A stretch of DNA of 37,912 bases from an uncultured Pseudomonadota bacterium (lineage in GTDB: Bacteria; Myxococcota_A; UBA796; SXON01): assembly GCA_903921785.1 (NCBI GenBank), contig CAIXRH010000213.1:1-37912 (forward strand). The letters run 5' to 3'. A model generated the notes under the pieces. That model saw nothing but the letters and a program-made list of their open reading frames with translations, did not search any database and was not told the DNA's origin. Both the position numbers and the translations under genes were made by a program. This document shows, piece after piece, positions 1,217 through 8,535 of this stretch. Every line of letters begins with the position of its first letter. Position 1 is the stretch's first letter.

Positions 1217-1245
1217 TTGACGCCCGTCGGCGGCAAGACTATGAC
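1217..1245 (+). promoter_or_regulatory. Candidate sigma-70-type promoter of the ISC operon
   Basis: TTGACG at 1217-1222 and TATGAC at 1240-1245 are separated by exactly 17 bp, a standard vegetative promoter layout. The transcription start would fall near 1252, inside the palindrome at 1244-1265, giving a very short leader to the ATG at 1268. The spacer is 17 bp rather than the stretched 19-20 bp typical of MerR-activated promoters, which argues for simple repression. Confidence 0.6.
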
Positions 1246-1265
1246 TCTCACGTTCACGTAAGAGT
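1244..1265. promoter_or_regulatory. 22-bp palindrome, candidate MerR operator
   Basis: The sequence reads ACTCT-C-ACGT-TC-ACGT-A-AGAGT. The 5-bp outer arms and the inner ACGT pairs are perfect inverted repeats, and 18 of the 22 positions are symmetric. Dyads of this size are typical operators for MerR-family dimers. It overlaps the proposed -10 element and start point and ends two bases before the ATG of the MerR gene. Binding here should block transcription, so I infer autorepression of the ISC operon. Confidence 0.65.
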
Positions 1266-1267
1266 TG

Positions 1268-1771
1268 ATGTCGGACCCTGCCCAGACCCTGATGCGCATC
1301 GGCGTCCTCGCGGACAAGGCCGGGCGTACGCAGCGCACCCTGCACTTCTACGAAGAGCTGGGGTTGCTCACGCCGGTCGGGCGTACCAAGGGCGGTTTTC
1401 GGCTCTACGACCAGGACTCGCTGCTGCGCATCCACTGGATCAGCCGGCTGCAGGACATGGGCTTCTCGCTCCCGGACATCCAGGAGTTCCTCGAGCAGCT
1501 CCGCTCCGCGCAGTCCGCCCCGGCGATGATGCAGTCGCTCGAAGACTTCTATGCCTCCAAGCGTGACGAAACGCGCACCCAGCTCGAGCGGCTCCAGTCG
1601 CTCGACCGGGAGCTCGCCTCCGCGCTGAACTACCTCGCCGGCTGCCAGACCTGCGCTCCCGCCACCGAGAAGTCGGCGTGTGGGAGCTGCGAGGAGGGGG
1701 AGCACGCCGAGGTGGAGGCCCCCGCGCTCGTGGCCGCCGTGCGCGAACCCCAGCCCCACCCGGATACCTGA
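1268..1771 (+). CDS. MerR-family regulator with CxxC-x8-CxxC, heads ISC operon
   Basis: The protein has 167 residues. It has a MerR winged-helix domain (about 9-76) with the signature [11 protein letters not shown] and [11 protein letters not shown], then a helix that would form the dimer coiled coil (about 88-123). The C-terminal tail has cysteines 126, 129, 138 and 141 in a CxxC-x8-CxxC arrangement. Four cysteines after the coiled coil recall SoxR, which carries a [2Fe-2S] cluster, although SoxR spacing differs. The gene ends one base before iscS, so they are almost certainly cotranscribed. By position it replaces the usual Rrf2-type IscR. I infer that it senses Fe-S status or metal and controls the operon through the palindrome at 1244-1265. 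The start could also be the TTG at 1265 or the ATG at 1292. The MerR family is certain; the ligand is not known. Confidence 0.85.
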
Positions 1772-1772
1772 G

Positions 1773-2996
1773 ATGGCCCTGAAGCTCCCCATCTACCTCG
1801 ATAACCACGCCACCACCAAGGTGGACCCGAAGGTTCTCGACGCGATGCTCCCCTACCTCACCGAGGTGTTCGGCAACGCCGGCTCGCGCAACCACTCCTT
1901 CGGGTGGTCGGCGCAAGAAGGCGTGGAGCGGGCGCGGGAGCAGGTGGCCGACCTCATCGGCGCCGACCCGAAGGAGATCGTCTTCACCTCGGGCGCCACC
2001 GAGTCCGACAACCTCGCCATCTTCGGCGTCGCCCACTTCTACAAGGAGAAGGGCAAGCACCTCGTGACCCAGGTCACGGAGCACAAGGCCGTGCTCGATG
2101 CGTGCCACGCCCTGGAGAAAGAAGGCTTCGAGATCACCTGGCTCCCGGTGGACAAGGAGGGGATGGTCAACCCGGCCGACGTGCGTGCCGCCATCCGCCC
2201 CGACACCATCCTGGTCTCGATCATGTGGGCCAACAACGAAGTCGGCACCATTCAGGACATCGCCGCCATCGGCGCGATCTGCCGGGAAAAGGGCGTCTTC
2301 TTCCACTCCGACGCCGTGCAGGGTATCGGCAAGCTCCCGTTCGACGTGGCGAAGATGAACGTCGACATGGTGAGCATCTCCGCCCACAAGATGTACGGGC
2401 CCAAGGGCATCGGCGCGCTCTACGTCCGCCGCGGCCGCCCCCGCCTGCGCCTGGAGCCCACGATGTTCGGCGGCGGCCAGGAGCGCGGCCTCCGCAGCGG
2501 CACCCACGCCGTGCACCAGATCGTCGGCCTCGGCGCCGCCTGCGCGGTGGCGAAGGAGGCCATGGCCGCCGGCGAAGCCGATCGCCTCCGCGCCCTGCGC
2601 GACCGCCTCTGGAACGGCCTCCAGGCCAACCTCGACGAGCTCTACCTCAACGGCAGCTGGGAGCACCGCCTCCCCGGCAACCTCAACGTGAGCCTCGCGT
2701 TCTGCGAGGGCGAAGCGATGATGATGGCGATCAAGGAGCTCGCGGTGAGCTCCGGCAGCGCCTGCACCTCGGCCTCGCTCGAGCCCTCCTACGTGCTCCG
2801 CGCCATGGGCGTGGACGTGGAGCTCGCCCACACCAGCATCCGCTTCGGCATCGGCCGGTTCACCACGGAAGAAGAGGTCGACTTCGCGATCCAGCTCGTC
2901 ACCGAGAAGGTGCGCTGGCTCCGCGAGATGTCGCCGCTCTACGAGATGGTGAAAGAAGGCATCGACATCAAGTCCATCGAATGGGCGGCCCACTAG
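1773..2996 (+). CDS. iscS: Cysteine desulfurase IscS
   Basis: This 407-residue PLP enzyme takes sulfur from L-cysteine as a persulfide, yielding alanine, and passes it to IscU. The N-terminus [11 protein letters not shown] is typical. The PLP lysine is Lys206 in [10 protein letters not shown], and the persulfide cysteine is Cys331 in [10 protein letters not shown]; both match IscS spacing. The C-terminus (SIEWAAH) resembles the IscS tail that contacts IscU, which favours IscS over NifS or SufS. The start is one base after the regulator stop, with no separate strong ribosome-binding site, suggesting translational coupling. Confidence 0.96.
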
Positions 2997-3013: not shown

Positions 3014-3418
3014 ATGGCGTACAGCAACAAGGTCATCGACCACTACGAGCACCCCCGCAACGTCGGCTCGCTCGACAAGAACGCGGAAGACGTGGGCACC
3101 GGCCTCGTGGGCGCCCCCGCCTGCGGGGACGTGATGAAGCTCCAGCTCCGGATCAACGACGACGGCATCATCGAAGATGCCAAGTTCAAGACCTTCGGCT
3201 GCGGCTCGGCGATCGCGTCCAGCTCGCTCGTCACCGAGATGGTGAAGGGCAAGACGGTGGAGTACGCGCTCTCCATCAACAACTCGATCATCGCCGAGGA
3301 GCTCAAGCTCCCCCCGGTGAAGATCCACTGTTCCGTCCTCGCCGAGGATGCCATCAAGGCCGCGATCGCCGACTTCAAGAAGAAGAAGGCCAGCCGCGCA
3401 GCCGCCACCGCGGAGTAG
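3014..3418 (+). CDS. iscU: Iron-sulfur cluster scaffold IscU
   Basis: This 134-residue scaffold is where [2Fe-2S] clusters are built from IscS-derived sulfur. The three ligand cysteines are Cys37 (PACGD), Cys63 (FGCGS) and Cys106 (IHCSV), with the conserved Asp39. The LPPVK motif at 99-103 is the known docking site for the chaperone HscA, and hscA is present downstream, so the set is consistent. GGGAG at 3004-3008 gives a good ribosome-binding site for the ATG at 3014. The tail is lysine- and alanine-rich and slightly longer than the enterobacterial protein. Confidence 0.96.
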   Translation: MAYSNKVIDHYEHPRNVGSLDKNAEDVGTGLVGAPACGDVMKLQLRINDDGIIEDAKFKTFGCGSAIASSSLVTEMVKGKTVEYALSINNSIIAEELKLPPVKIHCSVLAEDAIKAAIADFKKKKASRAAATAE

Positions 3419-3421
3419 GTC

Positions 3422-3760
3422 ATGGCCATCGAGCTCACCGAGCGTGCGGTCGGCCGCATCAACGAGCTGAAGAAGAAGCGGCAGACGCCCGAACACGTCT
3501 TCCGCATCGGGATCAAGGGCGGGGGCTGCTCCGGCTTGTCCTACTTCGTGGACTTCTCGCCGAAAGCCGAGGAGAAGGACAAGGTCTTCGCCTTCGGGCC
3601 GGACGAGGGGAAGGTGACCGTGGTCATCGACCGGAAGTCCTACCTCTTCCTCAACGGGACGATCATCGACTGGAAGTCCGAGCTGATGAAGACGGGCTTC
3701 GAGTTCATCAACCCGCTCGCCAAGACCAGCTGCTCCTGCGGGGAGAGCTTCACCGTCTAG
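3422..3760 (+). CDS. iscA: A-type Fe-S carrier IscA
   Basis: This 112-residue HesB/IscA-family protein is thought to carry iron or Fe-S clusters from the scaffold to apo-proteins. The three conserved cysteines are Cys36 in GGGCSGLSY and Cys104/Cys106 in the C-terminal SCSCGESF. It starts three bases after the iscU stop and lies between iscU and hscB, the canonical ISC order, so IscA is preferred over ErpA or SufA. Sequence alone cannot fully separate these paralogues. Confidence 0.93.
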   Translation: MAIELTERAVGRINELKKKRQTPEHVFRIGIKGGGCSGLSYFVDFSPKAEEKDKVFAFGPDEGKVTVVIDRKSYLFLNGTIIDWKSELMKTGFEFINPLAKTSCSCGESFTV

Positions 3761-3773
3761 GTCGGGAGCGTCG

Positions 3774-4352
3774 ATGGCCTCCAATCGTTCTGTCTGCTTC
3801 TCCTGCCGAGAGCCGGTACACGCGCCGTCGTGTGTCGGCTGCGGTGCGTTGCAGCCCCCGCCGCCCACGCCCGATCCGTTCGAGCTGTTCGGCCTGCCCC
3901 ACCGCTTCCACGTCGACGTGTCCGACGTGGACGCGAAGTACCGCGCCATCGCCCGCTCTACGCACCCGGATCGGTTCACCACCCGTCCGGCGGTGGAGCG
4001 GCGGATGTCCCTGCAGTGGACCGCCGCGCTCAACGAAGCGAAGCGGGTGCTCAAGGACGACCGCCTCCGCGCCCGTTGGCTCGCGACGGGCCGCGCCACC
4101 GCGGCCGAGGACGCCCGCCGCCAGATGGACCCGGCGTTCCTCGCCCAGATGTTTGAGTGGCGCGAAGCCGAGGAGGAGTCCCCTGGCTCCACCCACGCCG
4201 AAGCCGCCGCCGCGCGCGACGCCCTCCTCGCGGAGATCGACGCCGCCTTCACCGCCTGGGAGGCCGGCACCGGCACCCTCGATCACGTCGAGGACCGCCT
4301 CCTCCGTCTCAACTACGTCGAGGGGCTCCTGCGCCCCGCTCCGGAAGCCTGA
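3774..4352 (+). CDS. hscB: J-domain co-chaperone HscB with N-terminal Cys4 knuckle
   Basis: This 192-residue protein is the J-protein partner of HscA and delivers IscU to it. The HPD tripeptide that stimulates the Hsp70 ATPase is at 64-66, and the C-terminal helical part (about 110-190) would bind IscU. The first 23 residues carry Cys8, Cys11, Cys20 and Cys23, two CxxC pairs forming a likely zinc site. Enterobacterial HscB lacks this, while eukaryotic HSCB has a comparable N-terminal tetracysteine motif. GGGAG at 3764-3768 supports the start. It is followed three bases later by hscA. Confidence 0.92.
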
Positions 4353-4355
4353 CCC

Positions 4356-6182
<1,827 letters not shown>

Positions 6183-6183
6183 C

Positions 6184-6588
6184 ATGGGTAAAAACCCCTA
6201 CATGCACGACGAAGCGCCGCCGCTCCCCACGCGCCCCTACCGGATCACGGTCAAGGGCACCGACGTGGTGCTCGAGGTAGACCCCGCGAACCTGCCCGAG
6301 GCCGATCACGGCCAGGAAGGCTCGATCCTCACGATCCTCATGGCCGCGCACGTCGACCTGGAGCATGTCTGCGGCGGCGTCTGCGCCTGCTCCACCTGCC
6401 ACGTCTACGTCACGAAGGGTTTTGCCACGGCGAACGAAGCGACCGACGACGAGCTCGACATGCTCGACACCGCGCCGGCCCTGAAGGCCACCAGCCGCCT
6501 CGCGTGCCAGTGTGTGCCGAACGGCGAGAGTGACATCGAGATCGAGGTCCCGAGCTGGAACCGGAACGCGGTGAAGGAAGGGCACTGA
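6184..6588 (+). CDS. fdx: ISC-type [2Fe-2S] ferredoxin
   Basis: This 134-residue adrenodoxin-type ferredoxin supplies electrons for cluster assembly on IscU. The cluster ligands follow C-x5-C-x2-C (Cys63, Cys69, Cys72) with the fourth at Cys108 in RLACQ. It has two extra cysteines, Cys67 inside the loop and Cys110 after the fourth ligand. The N-terminus is about 15 residues longer than usual; an alternative start is the ATG at 6202. It begins one base after the hscA stop and is the last gene of the operon. No iscX follows. Confidence 0.93.
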
Positions 6589-6610: not shown

Positions 6611-7815
6611 CACCCCTCCTCTACCAGCTCGAACCTCCCGAAGTCGTACGGCTCTCCCGCCGCCTTCACCACCTGCACCAGCCGCTCGCGCTTCCCGGCG
6701 CGCTTGAGCGTCGCCGCGCGGTGGTAGCAGAACGGGTTGTTGCCCCGCCGCCCCAGCGTGGTGTGCGCGGTGAAGTTGCAGCCCGCGTGGCAGACCTCGG
6801 CGTACGCGCAGGTCCGGCAGAAGCCCCAGAGGTCCTCAACGGTGCGCTCGCGCGCGAAGCGCATCAAGGGCTGGTTCAACCACGCCTCCCGCACCGACTG
6901 GTCGAGGATGTTCCCCGCCCCGTAGGGCGCCGTCGGCAGCGACGGGCAGGCCTTGATCGTGCCGTCGGACTCGAGGCTGAGCACCGCGATGCCCGCCGCG
7001 CACCCGCTCCAATGCGCCGAGCTCCCGCCCGGACGCGAGCGCAGGAGCTCCTCGTGCGGACCGAAGTAGCCGATGTTGTTCCCGGGCTGGAGGTCGAAGG
7101 TCCGGTCGGGGAAAGGGAGCTCCCAGGGGCGGGGCTCGGCGACCGCGCGCTTCTGGATCTCCGCGAGGGTGTCGATGACCTGGAGGATGTCCCACGGCTG
7201 GAGGATCCACTCCGGGTGGTCCGCCGCGTTGCCCATCGGCACGGTGAGCTGGGCTCGCCAGTAGCGGACCTGACGGTCGCGGAGCGACTCCACGTGTTCG
7301 GCGAGCAGGTGTTTGTTGAGCCGGTTCACCTGACAGTTGCTGGAGACGCCGAGGCCCGCCTCCCGGGCGTTGTCGATCGCCCGCATCGCCGCCGCCCAGC
7401 TCCCTGTGTTTCCCCGGAGCTGGTCGTGCACCGCCTCGGGCCCGTCGATCGAGACCCCGATGCCGAACATCCCCGCGGCCTTGAGCGCCCGGGCCCGCGC
7501 CGCGGTCAACGCCCGACCGCCCGTCTGCATCGTCACCACGACGCCCGCGCCGGCGAGCGCGCGGACGATCTCGTCCAGGTCGGCGCGGAGGTACGCTTCG
7601 CCGCCGATGAGGGTGATCTCCCGAGCGCCCAGCTCGGCGAGTTGTTTCGCCACATCGAGGCACTCGGCGGTGCTCAGCTCCCGGTGGCGGGCCGCACCGG
7701 CGCGGCTTCCGCAGTGGGTGCACGGTTGGTCACAGCGCAGCGTGAGCTCCCACACGACGTAGATCGGGGTGGGGGTCTGTTCGGGATCGAAGGTCCGGCG
7801 CGTAGAACGTGGCAC
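6601..7815 (-). CDS. Radical SAM/SPASM-domain protein
   Basis: This 404-residue protein starts at a GTG. The radical SAM [4Fe-4S] motif is CDQPCTHC (Cys28, Cys32, Cys35), with the SAM-contacting GGE at 71-73. The C-terminal part has seven further cysteines (272, 290, 333, 336, 342, 346, 363) in the SPASM pattern that binds auxiliary Fe-S clusters. SPASM enzymes commonly modify peptides (PqqE, RiPP maturases) or act as sulfatase maturases. The gene is divergent, with a 44-bp gap, from two small cysteine-bearing paralogues (7860-8535), which are possible substrates or partners; that link is inference. A role in cofactor synthesis or enzyme maturation is equally possible. The family call is firm; the substrate is unknown. 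Confidence 0.9.
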   Translation of the reverse strand: MPRSTRRTFDPEQTPTPIYVVWELTLRCDQPCTHCGSRAGAARHRELSTAECLDVAKQLAELGAREITLIGGEAYLRADLDEIVRALAGAGVVVTMQTGGRALTAARARALKAAGMFGIGVSIDGPEAVHDQLRGNTGSWAAAMRAIDNAREAGLGVSSNCQVNRLNKHLLAEHVESLRDRQVRYWRAQLTVPMGNAADHPEWILQPWDILQVIDTLAEIQKRAVAEPRPWELPFPDRTFDLQPGNNIGYFGPHEELLRSRPGGSSAHWSGCAAGIAVLSLESDGTIKACPSLPTAPYGAGNILDQSVREAWLNQPLMRFARERTVEDLWGFCRTCAYAEVCHAGCNFTAHTTLGRRGNNPFCYHRAATLKRAGKRERLVQVVKAAGEPYDFGRFELVEEGWGG

Positions 7816-7828
7816 GCCGTGAGCGTAG

Positions 7829-7837
7829 CGTGTATCC
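7829..7837 (-). promoter_or_regulatory. GGATACACG element before radical SAM gene
   Basis: On the minus strand this reads GGATACACG, 13 nt before the GTG at 7815. It matches the element before the FKBP gene exactly. On the plus strand the same bases include TATCCT, which could serve as a weak -10 for the small-protein pair. Both roles are inferred. Confidence 0.35.
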
Positions 7838-7859
7838 TGGGGGCTGCCGAGGACCTCCG

Positions 7860-8201
7860 ATGAGCAAGCTTGTCCCGTGCGCCAGCTGCGGCGCCCACCT
7901 GATCGCCGGGAGCTGCCCGTCGTGTGGCGCCGTCGCCGCGCCCGCGCTCCCCACCGCCAGCCGCTCCGTCGCGGCCGCGCTCCTCGGCCTCGCCCTCGTG
8001 GGGTGCTCCACCTCCACGGACACGCCCCAGGCGCTCTACGGCGCGGCGATGCAGGACGAGGATGGCGACGGTTTTCCGCCGCCTGACGACTGCAACGACA
8101 ACGACGCGTCCATCCACCCCGGCGCCACCGAGACCGCGGGCGACGGCGTGGACTCCGACTGCGACGACCAGGACGACCCCGCCGACTCCGGCGGAGCCTG
8201 A
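7860..8201 (+). CDS. Small knuckle/lipobox/MopE-motif protein, copy 1
   Basis: I do not recognise a named function. The protein has 113 residues in three parts. A Cys4 knuckle comes first (Cys7, Cys10, Cys19, Cys22; C-x2-C-x8-C-x2-C). A hydrophobic stretch (about 37-48) then ends in the lipobox-like LVGC (Cys49). Last is one aspartate-rich motif (about 66-101, including DEDGDG and DCNDNDASIHPGATE) of the MopE-type putative metal-binding family, and the tail is DSGGA. If Cys49 is lipidated, the knuckle lies in an unusually long 48-residue leader that would be cleaved off. GAGG at 7849-7852 supports the start. It is one base from its paralogue at 8203 and divergent from the radical SAM gene. 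Confidence 0.8.
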   Translation: MSKLVPCASCGAHLIAGSCPSCGAVAAPALPTASRSVAAALLGLALVGCSTSTDTPQALYGAAMQDEDGDGFPPPDDCNDNDASIHPGATETAGDGVDSDCDDQDDPADSGGA

Positions 8202-8488
8202 CATGACGCTCGTCCCCTGTCGTGTTTGTGGGGCGCACGTCGTGGCGGGCGTCTGTCCCAGCTGCGGCGCCACCGGCGGCGCCCGGCGCACCGCCACCGC
8301 GGTCTTCCTCGGGCTCGCGATGGCGTCCGCGCCCGGCTGCATCATCCAGGCGGCCTACGGCGTCGCGTTCCAGGACGCCGACGGCGACGGGCACAACGTC
8401 CCTGGCGACGACTGCAACGATAACGACGCGTCCATCCACCCCGGCGCCACCGAGACCGCGGGCGACGGCGTGGACTCCGACTGCGACG
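8085..8488 (+). repeat. 82-bp near-identical repeat within the two small genes
   Basis: Positions 8085-8166 and 8407-8488 match at 81 of 82 bases; the one difference is C at 8099 versus T at 8421. They encode the same motif core in both proteins. The rest of each gene has diverged much more, which suggests recent gene conversion or strong constraint on this segment. Confidence 0.85.
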
Positions 8489-8535
8489 GCTTCGACAATC
8501 CCGCTGCCGACACGGGCGACTCCGGCGGGGCCTGA
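8203..8535 (+). CDS. Small knuckle/lipobox-like/MopE-motif protein, copy 2
   Basis: This 110-residue paralogue of the preceding protein has the same order of parts. It has a knuckle with Cys6, Cys9, Cys18 and Cys21, a hydrophobic stretch (about 31-45) ending in APGC (Cys46), and an aspartate-rich MopE-type motif (about 58-96, DADGDG then DCNDNDASIHPGATE). The tail is ADTGDSGGA. The site before Cys46 is a poorer lipobox than in copy 1 because of the proline, so this copy may remain membrane-anchored or use another signal. GGAG at 8193-8196 precedes the ATG, and the two genes are one base apart, so they form an operon. Function unknown; calcium or other metal binding is the likeliest property of the C-terminal part. 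Confidence 0.8.
   Translation: MTLVPCRVCGAHVVAGVCPSCGATGGARRTATAVFLGLAMASAPGCIIQAAYGVAFQDADGDGHNVPGDDCNDNDASIHPGATETAGDGVDSDCDGFDNPAADTGDSGGA

Follow-up and report, generated by a model that had tools for sequence, protein, structure and literature searches.

What controls iron–sulfur (Fe-S) cluster assembly in a bacterium whose isc operon begins with a gene for a MerR-family protein, in the place of IscR? We addressed this question in a stretch of DNA of 37,912 nucleotides, referred to as the window, and in related genomes.

The MerR gene and its linkage to Fe-S assembly

The open reading frame at 1268-1771 on the forward strand encodes a MerR-family protein of 167 amino acids and ends in a TGA stop codon at 1769-1771, one base before the ATG of iscS at 1773. 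The genes that follow, iscS-iscU-iscA-hscB-hscA-fdx, make up the full set, and the gaps between them are no longer than about 20 bases, making a single operon likely. The features are:
1268..1771, + strand, MerR-family regulator, proposed autorepressor of the isc operon (open reading frame and Pfam)
1773..2996, + strand, iscS, cysteine desulfurase
3014..3418, + strand, iscU, scaffold
3422..3760, + strand, iscA
3774..4352, + strand, hscB, co-chaperone
4356..6182, + strand, hscA, chaperone
6184..6588, + strand, fdx, [2Fe-2S] ferredoxin of the isc operon

MerR-superfamily domains in the first of these proteins, the N-terminal winged helix-turn-helix among them, pass the Pfam thresholds (MerR_1 PF13411, 58.9 bits against a cut-off of 21.6; MerR PF00376, 41.9 bits; MerR-DNA-bind PF09278, 38.1 bits), and the same search found no Rrf2 domain (PF02082) in it. 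The PDB fold matches listed for the protein are MerR-family proteins, SoxR among them. In an AlphaFold model with a mean pLDDT of 87 (about 70-76 for the tail), residues 84-126 form a long dimerisation helix. A PADLOC match to mad1 was set aside because it spans only residues 8-55, the helix-turn-helix.

We next considered how widely this arrangement occurs. The MerR gene is present in 38 of 58 relatives, and iscS lies directly 3′ of it in nearly all parsed loci; in the few others the gene or iscS was missed by a simple motif search. Across the phylum Myxococcota, a family profile matched in 126 of 379 genomes and an ISC-type IscU was found in 152, using simple open-reading-frame calls with a GC-codon score on a collection in which many genomes are metagenome-assembled (MAGs). 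In 113 of the 126, MerR and iscU share a strand, the MerR gene lying 1.25-1.83 kb 5′ of iscU and iscS occupying the interval. The preliminary description of this DNA had placed MerR one base 5′ of iscS at the head of a complete isc operon; coordinates and Pfam assignments bear this out in the window, and the arrangement evidently recurs. The remaining MerR genomes are mostly cases of contig ends, paralogues, or a MerR gene before a cysteine desulfurase without detected iscU. Three loci of family f24 (L217, L248, L249) have MerR-headed isc operons with iscS, iscA and hscB-/hscA-like genes in which iscU was undetected. In three loci of family f38 (L221, L247, L325), MerR directly precedes a cysteine desulfurase that is 40-43% identical to IscS, and no adjoining iscU was found.

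The distribution of the SUF system is related to that of the MerR gene. SufB/D was detected in 1 of 38 genomes with MerR versus 15 of 20 without it (Fisher p 7e-9, uncorrected for kinship), and its rarity in the former implies that ISC under MerR is usually the sole assembly system. SufB/D was not found in the source genome, so the isc operon of the window is probably the cell's only Fe-S assembly operon. In the one genome G309, we found no ISC-type IscU; here a MerR gene heads a complete SUF operon, comprising sufB, C, D, S, U and T together with an IscA-like gene (locus L246, G309:C67:14000-25000). Its product has the four cysteines described below and groups with isc-linked relatives (98/94 support), and the operator at this locus is degenerate. 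From its sequence, L246 represents an apparent move of the isc regulator to SUF, and it is the strongest single argument that the MerR protein is tied to the function of Fe-S assembly. The earlier proposal that MerR stands in IscR's place and is tied to Fe-S assembly thus gains support from this locus, as it does from the unique operator at the gene's own promoter.

Other regulators hold the same slot elsewhere. In family f13, which has ISC, the loci L236, L238 and L239 carry an Rrf2 gene immediately before iscS; this gene was not seen before iscS in L237 and L244. Family f3, of the same order, has SUF and no ISC, with an Rrf2 gene at the head in several genomes. ISC is present in families f7 and f8, where we recognised no adjoining regulator. 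Rrf2 matches are absent altogether from 12 MerR-bearing relatives. The preliminary description had named an Rrf2-type IscR acting on isc from elsewhere in the genome as the contrary case. The single Rrf2 gene of the source genome (G000:C84:21087-21473) lies beside a mannose-6-phosphate isomerase-like gene and adjoins neither isc nor suf. The cysteines of its product are spaced C-x6-C-x5-C.

A candidate operator and the geometry of the promoter

Directly upstream of the MerR gene lies a 22-bp palindrome that was absent from the preliminary description and that we consider a candidate operator. The promoter region contains:
1217..1222, + strand, -35 hexamer TTGACG (sequence; TTGAC precedes the operator in 99 of the 112 loci with a site)
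1240..1245, + strand, -10 hexamer TATGAC, 17-bp spacer (sequence; spacer statistics over 96 promoters)
1244..1265, no strand assigned, 22-bp palindromic candidate operator ACTCTCACGTTCACGTAAGAGT (conserved in the phylum; overlaps -10/+1 and reaches the merR ribosome-binding region)

The chance expectation of this site in the window is 0. Equivalents of the palindrome occur in nearly all isc-linked MerR loci, and at a strict threshold it was found in 112 of 148 MerR loci; the windows and thresholds were chosen after the palindrome had been seen, and these counts should therefore be taken as a measure of conservation, not as independent tests. In the source genome (7.48 Mb), the only perfect site is the one at 1244-1265. 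Similarly, a scan of 20 genomes (4-13 Mb) showed sites with one mismatch or none to be nearly confined to the merR-isc promoter, and near-perfect sites away from it were about as frequent as in a reversed-pattern control. The search for further targets thus returned one site with three mismatches in the source genome and approximately background in the 20 genomes.

Alignment of 96 promoters gave the best -10 signal at a spacer of 17 bp, with a mean of 3.3 of 6 matches versus 1.2-2.1 at other spacings. A generic promoter scan did not report the merR promoter because it demands a final T in the -10 hexamer, and TATGAC ends otherwise. Relative to the predicted +1, 21 promoters of the window's own family type have the operator start at -9; in most of the others it falls between about 0 and +10. 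Classical MerR activators bind inside a promoter spacer of 19-20 bp. By contrast, the spacer here is 17 bp and the operator lies over and after the -10 hexamer, an arrangement most naturally read as repression by occlusion. As judged from these sequences, the promoter geometry is indicative of a repressor and not of a SoxR/MerR-type activator. The 19-20 bp rule defines the classical activators and not the superfamily, and the assignment of the protein to the MerR superfamily therefore stands. A similar layout is known from RisR of Myxococcus xanthus, an Fe-S holo-repressor whose footprint on isc covers the -10 and the start site (PMC9973013), as the candidate operator of MerR covers -10/+1. 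A search of the window's isc promoter for the RisR site itself, T(t/g)GAC-N7-GTCC, found none.

The four-cysteine tail

The MerR protein of the window contains four cysteines and no others, arranged as CxxC-x8-CxxC:
1643..1690, + strand, codons for C126-x2-C129-x8-C138-x2-C141, proposed cofactor site (sequence; conservation)

In the AlphaFold model, they sit at the end of helix 84-126 and around a short helix at 135-140, all in one loop. The motif had been described as following the coiled coil, and C126, C129, C138 and C141 do directly follow the predicted helix. We examined 117 MerR proteins, having first removed known paralogues and distant relatives. All four cysteines are present in 116, in agreement with the conservation among orthologues on which the earlier proposal depended, and most of these proteins have no further cysteine. 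The spacing is C-x2-C-x8-C-x2-C in 88 and slightly different in 28; the exception, an isc-linked orthologue in genome G022 (L087), lacks one cysteine. No cysteine beyond the four in the tail is conserved. Four other MerR matches are present in the source genome; two were recovered at full length, and both lack the four-cysteine tail.

The expectation that the cysteines would be confined to isc-linked copies did not hold. Equivalent tails occur in MerR proteins encoded near folE (L216, L220), in paralogues of family f24 and in MAGs of Poribacteria, NC10, Thermodesulfobacteriota and Proteobacteria. TusA/DsrE-like or unrelated genes adjoin some of the related tail-bearing MerR genes. In a tree built from the first 112 residues, one supported set of 65 rows (support 99/96) unites the Fe-S-linked proteins with seven f24 paralogues, three desulfurase-linked proteins, the SUF-linked protein and one from a Planctomycetota-labelled MAG, and the Poribacteria proteins branch next to this set. 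The occurrence of the tail in non-isc contexts, together with this placement, argues that it predates recruitment to isc. By this comparison of sequences, the four-cysteine tail is older and wider than the isc-linked copies and is not specific to Fe-S assembly.

Two observations concern individual loci. Contigs titled Klebsiella pneumoniae or Bifidobacterium breve (L098, L103, L110, L111) encode a myxococcal-type MerR and are probably mislabelled MAGs. In NC10 (Methylomirabilota), a four-cysteine MerR gene and a similar palindrome are followed by an IscA-like gene (L135:3886-4915, L136:2463-3496); this palindrome overlaps the -35 and the spacer, unlike the layout in the window.

A proposed circuit and its alternatives

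Taken together, the data lead us to propose, with a probability of roughly 0.6, that the MerR protein is a dedicated autorepressor of Fe-S assembly, akin to IscR, RisR and SufR and built on a MerR scaffold, whose four-cysteine loop most likely holds a cluster. The protein would bind as a dimer to the 22-bp palindrome that covers -10/+1 of the merR promoter, thereby blocking RNA polymerase. The C-terminal loop most likely carries an Fe-S cluster, which would be supplied by the ISC machinery under MerR control; function and the four co-located cysteines make this the likely cofactor. When clusters are plentiful, the holo-protein, presumably the DNA-binding form, would repress the isc operon, and loss of the cluster under iron shortage or oxidative stress would release it. 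By analogy with known systems, such negative feedback by cluster supply is the most likely circuit. Several observations weigh on the other side: the occurrence of the tail outside Fe-S contexts, the f38 genes without adjoining iscU, the degenerate operator at L246 and the missing cysteine at L087.

The four-cysteine loop could equally hold zinc. CxxC-x8-CxxC is a common zinc arrangement, and in sensors of the ZntR, CueR and CadR type, the nearest MerR metal sensors by sequence score, the metal-binding loop is placed as the cysteine loop is here. The loop might thus be a sensor site for zinc or another metal, or a structural Zn(II) site, with isc tuned to metal stress and not to cluster status. 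ZntR gives the best NCBIfam similarity, and some tail-bearing relatives adjoin folE, which encodes a zinc enzyme. However, the ZntR score (64.6 bits) is under its cut-off, as are those of the curated MerR (59.5), CueR (54.3) and CadR (48.2) models. The metal-sensor cysteines, including the cysteine located where the long helix begins in ZntR and MerR, are not reproduced, all conserved cysteines being in the tail. In addition, no isc-linked locus that we read has a zinc export or uptake gene in its operon, the promoter geometry is of the repressor type, and the MerR protein stays with Fe-S assembly even where SUF has replaced ISC. We therefore regard a metal-sensing or structural zinc site as unlikely, while giving it some weight. 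Two CxxC pairs might instead react with persulfide or polysulfide from the cysteine desulfurase and adjust sulfur flow. Such a thiol switch would fit the desulfurase that adjoins in nearly every locus, including those of f38, and the TusA/DsrE-like genes near distant relatives. It is nevertheless improbable: the NC10 genes precede an IscA-like carrier with no desulfurase seen within the fetched stretch, and four conserved cysteines exceed the needs of a disulfide or trisulfide switch.

SoxR carries all cysteine ligands of its [2Fe-2S] cluster in one loop after the dimerisation helix, at the same place as the loop described here. The preliminary description had accordingly suggested SoxR-type action, in which the cluster would twist a suboptimal promoter and switch the operon on under oxidative stress. 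Despite the shared scaffold and the SoxR fold match, this part of the proposal fares poorly. SoxR activates from within a long spacer, whereas the operator here lies on -10/+1 or downstream with a 17-bp spacer; the SoxR motif CxxCxCx5C is absent, and the curated SoxR model scores 47.8 bits against a cut-off of 116.9. We consider such activation very improbable. Finally, adjacency alone proves no regulation, and an ordinary MerR gene could lie beside isc by accident; the conserved arrangement in 113 genomes, the dedicated operator and the alternation with Rrf2 and SUF partners make this scarcely credible.

The proposed cluster-sensing autorepressor can be compared with the regulators already known. 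IscR, RisR and SufR repress in their cluster-bearing form (PMC9973013; PMC8593673), and M. xanthus uses RisR, its isc locus being without an iscR orthologue (PMC9973013). The MerR protein would resemble IscR of E. coli and RisR in autoregulation or holo-repression of Fe-S biogenesis, and an Rrf2 gene occupies its slot in family f13; it differs in family, in its DNA site and in having four cysteines versus three. SufR, a DeoR-type protein of cyanobacteria and actinobacteria and the second known dedicated Fe-S assembly autorepressor, likewise has four cysteines in its C-terminal part and a palindromic operator (PMC8593673), but it belongs to an unrelated family, spaces its cysteines differently and controls suf. 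As in this class of dedicated repressors, the MerR gene is linked to isc or suf, and its own promoter carries a candidate operator.

In a review of bacterial Fe-S assembly, IscR and SufR are the only dedicated regulators named (PMC8593673), and our search of open-access papers found no description of a MerR regulator of isc, suf or Fe-S biogenesis. The task and the superfamily are known; their combination is new. On balance, we lean towards a third family after Rrf2 (IscR/RisR) and DeoR (SufR), namely an Fe-S-sensing MerR holo-repressor that would occlude -10/+1, serve as main regulator in much of Myxococcota and, in at least one lineage, have passed to SUF. If so, feedback by cluster sensing evolved anew on an unrelated scaffold, the MerR superfamily gains a cluster-responsive member acting as a plain repressor, and control of the sole assembly line in Myxococcota with ISC but no SUF or IscR is explained. 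The operator and the four residues offer precise targets for testing and mutation.

Two minor features of the window lie outside this circuit. Its HscB (3774-4352) has an N-terminal CxxC plus another CxxC, which recall the zinc-binding N-terminus of eukaryotic HSCB. At 7809-8535 on the forward strand, two adjoining open reading frames resemble tandem duplicates, each opening with a short zinc-ribbon-like segment (C.xCGAH...CPSCGA), followed by a hydrophobic segment that ends in a cysteine and then by DxDGDG...DCND...DGVDSDCD repeats.
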